Source: Fidelibacterota bacterium | GTDB lineage: Bacteria > Fidelibacterota > Marinisomatia > SCGC-AAA003-L08 > TS1B11 | Direction: 5' to 3' | Assembly: GCA_020354025.1 (NCBI GenBank) | Contig: CP070638.1 | Coordinates: forward strand, 1,378,242-1,442,241 | DNA length: 64,000 bases | In this document: positions 2,115-5,790 of the stretch, piece by piece | How the letters are laid out: every line of letters begins with the position of its first letter | Numbering within the stretch: position 1 is the stretch's first letter | Position numbers and translations under genes: made by a program | Notes under the pieces: model-generated | What the model was told of the DNA's origin: nothing | What the model saw: only the letters and a program-made list of their open reading frames with translations | Database searches by the model: none

Positions 2115-3173
2115 TCAGCCGGTTGCCAGGGCTTCCTCGAACTTGGCTTTCTGTTCCTTGAAGTATTCCCGCTCAGGATCCAGTTCGATGCACCGGTCGA
2201 TCACCTGGCTGGCTTCCGCCACGCGCCCCAGCTTCCAGAGCACCTCAGCGTGGGTATCCATAATATTCGCCCTGACATCGGCATCCGCAGTCTTGGCCAT
2301 ATCCACGGCGAGGATGACTTTTTCCAGGGCGTCCTCCAGGTTCATGTCAAAGCGGGTCATACGCCAGGCGTAGCCGTTCAACATTGAATAGGTGATGATA
2401 TCCGCCTCTATCGCCCGGCGTATACGTTCTTCGAAGGCCCGCACTTCGTTGAGCGTGTCCTTCCTCGCACGGTAGATCATGACGAGGTCCTCGAATATAT
2501 CATGGGCGAAAGGACTATCCGGATCTTGCCGGGCCAGCTCAAGGAGCGGTTCGGGAAGGGTATCCAGGTAGGCCTGTCCCCAGGCGATGACGAACCTGCC
2601 CCTGGCCGCCTCTGGACTGTCCGGGTCCGCCAGGCCGGCGATTTTCCGCCCGGCAGCGACAATCTCAGGGAACATGTTGCGGGACTCGTAGGCCGCCGCC
2701 AGGGCCAGCTGGGCCTTCAGATCCTCCGGATCCTCCGCCACCTGCTGCCGCCAGCTCTCGAAAGTGCTGTCACCGGCGGCGATCCGCTGCATCTCCGACA
2801 GGAACTCATCGGGGGGAGCATAGCCGAAGATGCGGTCCACCTCCATACCATCCGGCCGCAGGAACGCAACCGTAGGGTAGCCGAGAATGTGGTACTTGGC
2901 TACCAGTTCCGGGCCATCATCGTGGAGCTTGTGGACCTTGATACTGACCAGATTCTGCTCTGCGTAGGAAATGATCCGGGGATCGGGAAACGTAACGGCA
3001 TCCAGCCGTTCACACCACGTTCAGTTGTCGGTGATGAAATCGACCATCACCATCCGGTCACCGGCCGTTGCCAGTGCCTGCTCCAGGGTGATGTCCTTCC
3101 AGCTGAAAGTATCTCTGGAGCCGCATCCGGCGGCCAGGACACCTGCAAGCAGAAGCGCGTATCGAACTCTCAC
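2115..3173 (-). CDS. Probable selenoprotein: thioredoxin-like TPR lipoprotein with UxxC active site
   Basis: Proposed 352-residue product read through an in-frame UGA at 3021-3023 (codon 51). The GTG start at 3173 has a GGGAGG ribosome-binding site 8 nt upstream and opens a lipoprotein signal with lipobox LAAGC (Cys17). A thioredoxin-like fold follows: MVMVDF, then D-N-UGA-T-W-C at 49-54, RLDAVTF, and the cis-proline motif GYPTVAF. The UGA sits at the first cysteine of the usual CxxC, giving U51-T-W-C54. The remaining two thirds contain TPR-like helical repeats. A hairpin fitting a bacterial SECIS begins at the UGA. A caller that stops at UGA would report only the ATG at 2846 and lose the active site. 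The alternative is a pseudogene, but the frame is open and conserved on both sides. The role is inferred to be periplasmic thiol redox chemistry. Confidence 0.72.
2989..3023 (-). promoter_or_regulatory. SECIS-like hairpin after UGA codon
   Basis: In the transcript, the UGA (3023-3021) is followed by a two-part stem. The lower stem is AACGU/ACGUU (3021-3017 with 2993-2989). The upper stem is AACGGC/GCCGUU (3010-3005 with 2999-2994), closing a 5-nt loop UGGAU at 3004-3000. The loop begins 16 nt after the UGA and has G at its second position. Known bacterial SECIS elements need a short apical loop with an early G about 16-37 nt from the UGA. No energy calculation was run. Confidence 0.65.
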
Positions 3174-3387
3174 GGTAGTACCTCCCAGTATTGCTCAAGT
3201 GATGGAAGGGGCAGACACAAAGAACTCGTTCCTTATGGCCGTATTATGCAGCGGAATATACAGCTGACTGGCTAACATAGTGAGGCCCTGATTTTGAGAT
3301 GAGTTTTAGGATGCCCTGGGAGGATTCTACAGCCCAAATCAGGAATCTTTCAATAAATTCCATCCAGAATCCTTTTATTGGAGCGAT

Positions 3388-3816
3388 ATGATGAAGGGCA
3401 AAGTATTACTAATAGAAGATAATGAGATCTACGCCAAGATCATAAAGGTCTGTCTGGAGGAGTCAGGGCATGAGGTGCATGTGCTTGAGGATGGGGAATC
3501 CGCCTTAAAGAACGCAGAGAAAATAAGGCCCCATGCGATACTCCTGGATATCATGCTCCCAGGCATCAATGGCATTGCGGTCTGTAGGAAGATCAAGGAA
3601 AATCCCTCTTTGCGATCTATTCCGGTCATAATGCTAACGGCTAAATCAGAGGCAGGAATCGTAAAAGCAGCAATCAAAGCCGGAGCCGACGATTATATTA
3701 CCAAGAACAACGACATTGAGACGGTTTGGACTGAGATCGAGGACAAGATTATTACGAGTTTAATTAAGCAAGTCCAGGACTCCGCCGATGATGATGTACC
3801 GCCGGCGGACAGGTAG
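3388..3816 (+). CDS. Single-domain response regulator
   Basis: A 142-residue protein that is essentially one CheY-like receiver. The acidic pocket is E10-D11, the phospho-acceptor is Asp54 in ILLDIMLPG, and the switch residues are Thr84 (MLTAKS) and Lys106 (YITKN). No DNA-binding or enzymatic output domain follows. It therefore probably acts through a protein partner, as in CheY or Spo0F-type relays. The start is ATG at 3388 with GGAG upstream, though a second ATG follows directly. A histidine kinase begins 5 bp downstream on the same strand, making this a two-gene signalling operon. The stimulus is unknown. Confidence 0.92.
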   Translation: MMKGKVLLIEDNEIYAKIIKVCLEESGHEVHVLEDGESALKNAEKIRPHAILLDIMLPGINGIAVCRKIKENPSLRSIPVIMLTAKSEAGIVKAAIKAGADDYITKNNDIETVWTEIEDKIITSLIKQVQDSADDDVPPADR

Positions 3817-3821
3817 TCACT

Positions 3822-5624
3822 ATGAATAATTCCGGCACCGAGAATCCCACACCTTTGAAGGAATTCGACTCCTCGGCTGCATCGATCCGACTGCAGAAAT
3901 ACTGGGGATTGATTTCCAATCCAAAGCGCACGCTACCGTATCTGATACTGATGATATTCGTTTCGGAAGTAATTGCGATGCTGACAGTGCGTTTTCTGTT
4001 TGACCTCCCGCCGGTACCTGAAACATTGCTGGATGCTTCGATCCTGGTGGTCCTACTCGTTCTAGCCTATTACTTCGTGCTGTTTATTCCGCTTCACTCA
4101 CAAATCACCAAGCAAAAGCAAATAGAGCTCAAGATAAAGCAGTTATCCACCGCAGTCGAGCAGAGCCCCGCCTCAATTGTGATTACGGATCCGAGCGGCA
4201 CGATTGAATATGTAAATCCGAAATTCACCGAGGTGACCGGTTATAAATACGAAGAGGTGATCGGTCAGAATCCCAGGGTATTGAAGTCCGGTTCGCAGCC
4301 GGTTGAATTTTATTCGACGCTTTGGAAGACGATCACATCTGGTAAAGAATGGCGTGGTGATTTCTGCAATAGGAAAAAAAATGGTGAGGTATATTGGGAA
4401 AACGCTTCCATTTCCCCGATCAAATCCTCAACGGGCGAGATCACTCATTTTGTTGCCGTAAAGGAAGATATCACTGAACGCAAACTGGCTGAAGAAGCTT
4501 TAGAGGCTGCTGAGAAACGATACCGACAACTCGTAGAAGAAACCAGTGATACAGTATTCACAATAGATCTGGAGGGGACTTTTACCTATGTCAATCCTTC
4601 AGCAGAGACGATAACAGGGTATGAAGAGAGCGAACTCATCGGAATGTCCTTCACCCAGTTGATCCGCCCGGACTGGCTTGATCGTGTCCAGGGATTTTAT
4701 CGTGAACAACGAGACAAGTCGGTCCCCGAGACATCCCTTGAGTTTCCCATTATCACCAAGCAGGGTGAGACCAGGTGGGTAGAGCAGACTGTCAATGCCG
4801 TGATCGAGGAGGGCCAACTGGCTAGTCTCCAAGCGACTGTGAGGGATGTGACCGAACGAAAGCAGGCAGAAGAAGCATTGCGGGAGTCCCGCGAGAAATA
4901 TCGGGATTTATCCGAGGAACTGAAAAAAGCGAATGTCACCAAGGATAAATTCTTTTCAATAATCGCCCATGATCTGAGGGGGCCATTGGGCAATTTCCAT
5001 GCCTTATCGAAAATGTTCGTCAGCAGGTTTGAGAGATTCCCACCAGACAAGATCAAGGAGATGATCGAGCAGCTGCACACCTCCGCCTCACAGTCATACA
5101 AGCTGCTGGAAAACCTGCTGGATTGGTCCAGGCTTCAGTTGGGCCGGATGGAGTTCAAGCCGGAGCCGTTGTCTATTGCGGAGCTGACAGAGGAGAACGT
5201 TGAACTATTCAACTCTCAGGCTAAAGAAAAAGATCTATCATTGATCAATTCCACCGACCCGACCAACACGGTGCTCTCCGATCGAAACATGTTGACCACT
5301 GTGATGCGGAATCTGATCTCAAATGCCATCAAGTTTACGCCGCGGGGAGGAGAAATCGTTATCTCCTCGTCAACGGATGAGACACAGGGCAATATTGTCG
5401 TTTGTGTAACTGATACAGGCATAGGAATGTCCGAAGAGATACTTGAATCCATCTTCGATGTTGAATCCTACCATACAACTTTAGGTACTGAGAAGGAGAA
5501 AGGTACCGGTCTTGGTTTGCCCCTCTGCAAGGAATTCATTGAAAAAAACAACGGGAAGATAAGGGTTGAGAGCGAATTGGGCCGCGGCAGCAGATTTTCC
5601 TTTGAACTCCCAGCGGTTGCTTAA
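3822..5624 (+). CDS. PAS-PAS sensor histidine kinase
   Basis: A 600-residue membrane sensor kinase. Two hydrophobic segments (about 38-60 and 72-92) are separated by only a dozen residues, so there is no real periplasmic sensor. A first PAS/PAC domain follows at about 105-220 and a second at about 230-345, each ending in the PAC-type DITERK or DVTERK motif. After a short coiled coil comes the dimerisation domain with phospho-acceptor His383 in IIAHDLRGPLG. The ATPase domain has N-box NLISNAIKF, G1 DTGIGM and G2 GTGLGLPL. It presumably phosphorylates the receiver encoded 5 bp upstream. Intracellular redox or small-molecule sensing through the PAS domains is inferred, not shown. Confidence 0.93.
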   Translation: MNNSGTENPTPLKEFDSSAASIRLQKYWGLISNPKRTLPYLILMIFVSEVIAMLTVRFLFDLPPVPETLLDASILVVLLVLAYYFVLFIPLHSQITKQKQIELKIKQLSTAVEQSPASIVITDPSGTIEYVNPKFTEVTGYKYEEVIGQNPRVLKSGSQPVEFYSTLWKTITSGKEWRGDFCNRKKNGEVYWENASISPIKSSTGEITHFVAVKEDITERKLAEEALEAAEKRYRQLVEETSDTVFTIDLEGTFTYVNPSAETITGYEESELIGMSFTQLIRPDWLDRVQGFYREQRDKSVPETSLEFPIITKQGETRWVEQTVNAVIEEGQLASLQATVRDVTERKQAEEALRESREKYRDLSEELKKANVTKDKFFSIIAHDLRGPLGNFHALSKMFVSRFERFPPDKIKEMIEQLHTSASQSYKLLENLLDWSRLQLGRMEFKPEPLSIAELTEENVELFNSQAKEKDLSLINSTDPTNTVLSDRNMLTTVMRNLISNAIKFTPRGGEIVISSSTDETQGNIVVCVTDTGIGMSEEILESIFDVESYHTTLGTEKEKGTGLGLPLCKEFIEKNNGKIRVESELGRGSRFSFELPAVA

Positions 5625-5673: not shown

Positions 5674-5728
5674 ATTAGAACATCCTGCCCCACCTCTGAC
5701 AGGACTGATTGGATGACTACTCTGACGC

Positions 5729-5790
5729 TTACTTTAATGACAGGATCTTGATATACCTGGAATATTCCAGCGTTACCAAGCGGGGTATTG
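5729..5790 (-). pseudogene. Relic of a T9SS-type sorting-domain tail, copy 2
   Basis: The minus strand reads IPRLVTLEYS, RYIKILSLK and a TAA stop, matching the C-terminal signature of the intact sorting-domain genes. The DNA beyond the stop (GCGTCAGAGTAGTC) is identical to that beyond copy 1, so the two relics share ancestry past the coding end. No open frame continues upstream. Confidence 0.6.

Follow-up and report, generated by a model that had tools for sequence, protein, structure and literature searches.

Organization of the locus

The window, meaning the whole 64,000-nucleotide stretch of DNA analysed here, belongs to a genome consisting of one contig of 3.40 Mb (G000). On its minus strand lies a predicted selenoprotein gene, whose features are collected in Table 1. 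Translation from 3173 to 2115 with TGA read as selenocysteine (Sec, U) gives a single frame whose sole internal TGA, at 3021-3023, stands in the context D-N-U-T-W-C-E-R-L; the gene's own stop codon, at 2115-2117, is also TGA. An initial annotation of this DNA had described a GTG start (3171-3173) with a good ribosome-binding site and lipobox, followed by a frame open to the UGA and then onward to 2115, and all of these were recovered. At the position equivalent to the GTG, a homologue in the nearest relative (G001) has an ATG. The lipobox, judged by eye, ends in Cys17 (codon 3123-3125), which is at least 90% conserved in an alignment of 30 homologues. The annotation had also expected gene calling to truncate the protein at the ATG at 2846. 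The mechanical list of open reading frames does begin the downstream part there, giving 243 amino acids and losing the active site.

A profile search of the protein matched PF13098 with 39.6 bits (gathering cut-off 27), with the UxxC present as U-T-W-C. An AlphaFold2 model built from the family alignment (mean pLDDT 94, pTM 0.82) predicts a thioredoxin fold with a superhelix of helical repeats behind it. The PDB structures that best matched it were thioredoxins, DsbD-gamma, DsbH, a Bacteroides disulfide isomerase and TPR proteins, among them YbbN with its two domains.

Table 1. Features of the predicted selenoprotein gene and its product, in window positions
Feature	Position	Strand	Remarks
Predicted complete selenoprotein gene	2115..3173	-	352 residues with one Sec; GTG start to TGA stop; full length conserved in relatives
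Ribosome-binding site GGGAGGT	3180..3186	-	6 nt 5' of the GTG; read directly
Signal peptide and lipobox, putatively lipidated Cys17	3123..3173	-	Read by eye; Cys17 at least 90% conserved
UGA, predicted selenocysteine U51, attacking position of U-T-W-C	3021..3023	-	TGA 59, TGT 8, TGC 4 in 71 homologues
Resolving Cys54 of U-x-x-C	3012..3014	-	Invariant in alignment A1
Predicted bSECIS stem-loop	2991..3014	-	Upper stem 3005-3009/2995-2999; loop UGGAU 3000-3004; lower stem 3011-3014/2991-2994
Thioredoxin-fold domain (PF13098; DsbD-gamma-like)	2781..3104	-	cis-Pro100 at 2874-2876
C-terminal TPR superhelix	2118..2762	-	Motifs WRM and DTxAEVLWKLG
Shortened ORF expected from a standard gene caller	2115..2846	-	Start inside the thioredoxin domain

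Selenocysteine machinery of the genome

The initial annotation had proposed searching the genome for the Sec machinery, and every component was found: SelA (530 bits), SelB (328 bits; cut-off 242), SelD (402 bits) and tRNA-Sec (75 bits), for which ARAGORN gave the anticodon UCA. The selB gene lies directly after selA. This organism is able to make selenoproteins. Its selD carries a single TGA of its own at the textbook Sec site, GAGUACK, and serves as an internal positive control. Located at G000:C1:1667777-1668703 (L046), selD is itself a selenoprotein gene.

Full-length SelB was likewise found in most of the TGA-carrying genomes tested. Some TGA-carrying drafts (e.g. G006, G038, G085, G172, G173, G183, G208, G210 and G215) yielded no SelB above the cut-off or pieces only, which is most simply explained by absent or broken contigs.

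Conservation of the UGA codon and of the protein

Sixty relatives contained 30 full-length homologues, 24 of which have a single in-frame TGA; no other internal stop occurs in any of the 30. The search was widened by a phylum-wide profile search covering 245 genomes. Among 71 homologues with the Sec site available, the codon is TGA in 59, TGT in 8 and TGC in 4; TAA or TAG was found at this site in none of the 71. The UGA had been placed by the initial annotation at the first Cys of a CxxC motif, and the homologues, which it had suggested aligning, carry U-x-x-C or C-x-x-C at exactly that site. Nearly all of the 22 invariant alignment columns lie at or downstream of the UGA, and the invariant positions include W25, U/C51, C54, P100, WRM and DT-x-x-E. 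A contig search with the single protein returned one match only, a distant one (24% identity) in a Rubripirellula MAG. Three features by which bacterial selenoproteins are recognized were found here, namely a UGA aligned with Sec or Cys, SelA, SelB, SelD and tRNA-Sec, and a conserved protein-coding sequence flanking the UGA.

The SECIS hairpin

The published model of the bacterial SECIS element (bSECIS) specifies a stem of 4-16 bp, a distance from UGA to loop of 16-37 nt and a minimum free energy of at most -7.5 kcal/mol (PMC13188914). The window hairpin lies within all of these constraints, with an upper stem of 5-6 bp and a spacing of 16 nt, and the 48 nt starting at the UGA fold with an energy of -14.1 kcal/mol. 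An early G in a five-nucleotide loop had been noted correctly (UGGAU, G at position 2). The hairpin had also been said to start 16 nt after the UGA; this distance applies to the apical loop, whereas the upper stem starts 10-11 nt after the UGA and a start at 6 nt is possible for a lower stem.

Single-sequence thermodynamic folding was uninformative (z -0.3 to -2), and the window hairpin was not unusual against its own shuffles (z -0.59), so we relied on comparative tests. Across 41 distinct sequences, 85% of cells in the proposed stem are paired versus 18-55% when the partners are slid, and double-changed cells number 21 where shuffles lead one to expect 5.5. Compensatory versions of the stem include CGGC/GCCG, CAGC/GCTG, CGAC/GTCG, ATGC/GCAT and CGTT/AACG, enclosing a loop that hardly varies. 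The hairpin thus both conforms to the published constraints and covaries, which answers the folding check that the initial annotation had suggested.

Because the stem also encodes the peptide R-L-D-A, a synonymous-recoding test was applied in which each gene was recoded with its own codon usage in 1000 replicates. The real genes keep 4.67 of the five upper pairs versus 3.02 +/- 0.11 after recoding (0/1000), and this excess holds in the family f3 subset alone (0/1000). The 12 Cys homologues keep 2.33 pairs versus 2.04 +/- 0.22 (118/1000) and have no clear mean excess; two of the 12, L020 and L084, keep all five. In the lower stem one pair (columns 13/30) is broken in 20 of the 41 sequences, and firm support is therefore confined to the upper stem.

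Eight TGA homologues (L107-L114, families f27-f29) are without the main stem and have, a few nucleotides further on, a GACC-AGUU-GGUC hairpin with an early G, compensatory change and pairing above recoding (0/1000). Two SECIS registers thus occur in one protein family, the second being used by one clade. The peptide after the active site is altered in these eight homologues.

Gene neighbourhood

In the window's own genome, gene order gives no functional hint: a divergent response regulator and histidine kinase lie on one side of the gene and a CBS-domain protein on the other. The former occupy 3388-5624 on the plus strand, the response regulator being followed by a PAS-PAS histidine kinase. 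Two intergenic stretches, 1070-1110 and 5690-5745, resemble each other (ctgcgggactactctgacgctt / ggatgactactctgacgctta) and may be copies of one small repeat. A DsbD-type membrane protein is encoded in the same genome.

A peptidyl-prolyl isomerase (PPIase) gene lies directly upstream on the same strand in some 17 relatives, almost all belonging to family f3, and codes for a double FKBP or a cyclophilin-FKBP fusion; no such neighbour is present at the locus in the window's genome. One upstream PPIase scored 150 bits against the NCBIfam model for BamJ (cut-off 100), and two general FKBP models were also passed. BamJ is a protein of the beta-barrel-assembly machinery. The loci with an upstream PPIase are L022, L027-L033, L036-L041 and L043-L045, and many of the PPIases have a lipobox.

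Interpretation and alternative explanations

The initial annotation had read the UGA as Sec, and the conserved codon, the Sec pathway and the covarying hairpin all support that reading. On this comparative evidence we regard Sec insertion as nearly certain, and the gene as a real selenoprotein gene of a real selenoprotein family with an ordinary mode of decoding. The locus as a whole is very probably best explained as coding for a lipid-anchored, exported selenoprotein that carries out U-x-x-C thiol-disulfide chemistry.

During translation, SelB with Sec-tRNA(Sec) would recognize the stem-loop behind the UGA, and Sec would enter the attacking position of U-x-x-C. The conserved lipobox suggests that the protein crosses the inner membrane, receives a lipid at Cys17 and stays attached to a membrane outside the cytoplasm. 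There the selenol would attack client disulfides and Cys54 would resolve the mixed intermediate, a mechanism suggested by the DsbD-gamma-like domain and by the invariance of the proline in the cis-Pro position. The TPR superhelix may bind the client or a partner, and the DsbD-like membrane protein of the same genome could keep the protein reduced. The PPIase synteny in many relatives hints that the protein helps to fold envelope proteins or to control their quality.

Since the gene has no PPIase neighbour in its own genome, our functional reading draws on the predicted structure and on how genes are arranged in relatives. On this basis, a thiol-disulfide or folding role seems reasonably probable, with a role in envelope folding as our best guess. 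The family as a whole suggests that the cell envelope throughout the phylum hosts selenium-dependent redox chemistry. The same basis, with the PPIase neighbour lacking at this locus, leaves some room for a real selenoprotein with another role outside the cytoplasm, such as peroxide or methionine-sulfoxide reduction or the scavenging of selenium or metals. We consider this possible but distinctly the less likely case: UxxC, the DsbD-gamma-like fold and the invariant proline fit thiol-disulfide exchange, and a folding role agrees with the PPIase synteny of some 17 relatives.

Explanations in which Sec is not inserted fare far worse. A reading in which the locus makes two products, a short lipopeptide that terminates at the UGA and a TPR protein initiated at the ATG at 2846, agrees with the mechanical calling of the second open reading frame. 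It would split the thioredoxin fold, however, and the 58 codons between UGA and ATG are conserved as protein (dN/dS ~0.19 between G000 and G001), while Cys homologues encode one continuous chain, so that we find this very improbable. A sequencing error, or a nonsense mutation in a pseudogene of an ordinary C-x-x-C protein, is conceivable in that TGA is one base away from TGT and TGC and that Cys homologues exist. Against it stand the recurrence of TGA at this codon throughout the phylum, in 59 separate genome sequences, with TAA and TAG never in its place, purifying selection over all codons downstream of the UGA (dN/dS ~0.28, same pair of genomes) together with invariant motifs, and the covariation of the hairpin, which reduce its probability to almost nothing. 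Decoding as another amino acid, e.g. as Trp by a suppressor or by a code change of the kind that occurs in some bacteria, is equally negligible, as sense homologues always have Cys and never Trp at the site, the gene itself terminates with TGA, a complete Sec pathway with a UCA-anticodon tRNA-Sec is present, SelD has a classical Sec site and the SECIS-type hairpin is conserved.

Relation to known selenoproteins and thioredoxin-fold proteins

A catalogue from 2026 comprises 119 families and subfamilies of prokaryotic selenoproteins (PMC13188914). It already includes a Sec-containing 'thiol:disulfide interchange protein' (PF13098, UxxC), and a 'Trx-like 2' selenoprotein (cd02953) is known from the GOS data (PMC13188914 Table 1; PMC2398784). 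The domain type PF13098 and the position of Sec in U-x-x-C are common to these and the window protein. Compared by description, the catalogue entry (representative WP_011366075.1) is defined by its thioredoxin domain alone, whereas the window protein belongs to one family of ~350 aa in which a lipoprotein anchor precedes this domain and a TPR superhelix follows it. None of the 119 families is described there as having a TPR or lipoprotein architecture, and the terms TPR, tetratricopeptide and lipoprotein are absent from the catalogue (PMC13188914). Nor was a TPR or lipoprotein selenoprotein of such a kind found in open-licence literature, reviews and surveys. The initial annotation had called a Sec-containing thioredoxin/TPR lipoprotein unusual; this does not apply to the catalogued UxxC domain type but stands for the lipoprotein-UxxC-TPR architecture and its deep, phylum-wide conservation. 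The decoding mechanism is thus ordinary and the kind of protein known at the domain level, but the architecture and the phylum-wide family are apparently unlisted. A selenoprotein family would be added, one whose gene standard annotation is expected to truncate in every genome with the Sec form.

No model of NCBIfam release 20.0 reaches its cut-off for the window protein. The best match (65 bits against a cut-off of 805; residues 24-131) is to the C-terminal thioredoxin part of TsoB (NF045694), a rhodanese/DsbD fusion-like selenoprotein, and covers only the C-terminal 111 of 572 model positions; the TsoB motif is UxxxxU, unlike the U-x-x-C found here. DsbD (NF001419) scores 49.4 bits against a cut-off of 330, again through its C-terminal thioredoxin part only. 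The structures of DsbD-gamma, DsbH and the disulfide isomerases (PDB 1uc7, 2fwg, 2ju5, 2kuc) have the thioredoxin fold in common with the model (TM-score ~0.67-0.83 by target length) but are without a TPR part and carry ordinary Cys. Like the window protein, E. coli YbbN (CnoX) has a thioredoxin domain followed by TPR-like helices and was the second-best PDB match (3qou), but over their full length the two superpose poorly (TM-score 0.24 by query length). YbbN is a cytoplasmic protein, carries no lipid anchor, and its active site is degenerate.

History of Sec and Cys in the family

A midpoint-rooted tree of the 67 members with sufficient sequence length requires six Sec/Cys changes, five of which are forced by well-supported branches, and Sec is present in most clades, including the most divergent. 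The root being the midpoint, the direction of the changes is inferred. Judged from these sequences, Sec appears to be old in the family and Cys a repeated replacement. A bolder version has an ancestral, phylum-wide, Sec-dependent envelope foldase with Sec as the default and Cys as a later state, which would act with PPIase partners (one of them over the BamJ cut-off) in outer-membrane protein assembly; we offer it as speculation that is rather unlikely to hold in full.

The idea that Cys homologues are confined to genomes without Sec machinery found no support. SelB is still present in most of the Cys-bearing relatives, so replacement by Cys is not simply a matter of pathway loss. With its old Sec, several Sec/Cys exchanges and two registers, the family would provide a natural series for the gain and decay of SECIS elements under a constant protein. 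In the tree, L020 and L084 are Cys forms that adjoin Sec relatives and have retained the hairpin, and they are possibly recent Sec-to-Cys replacements.
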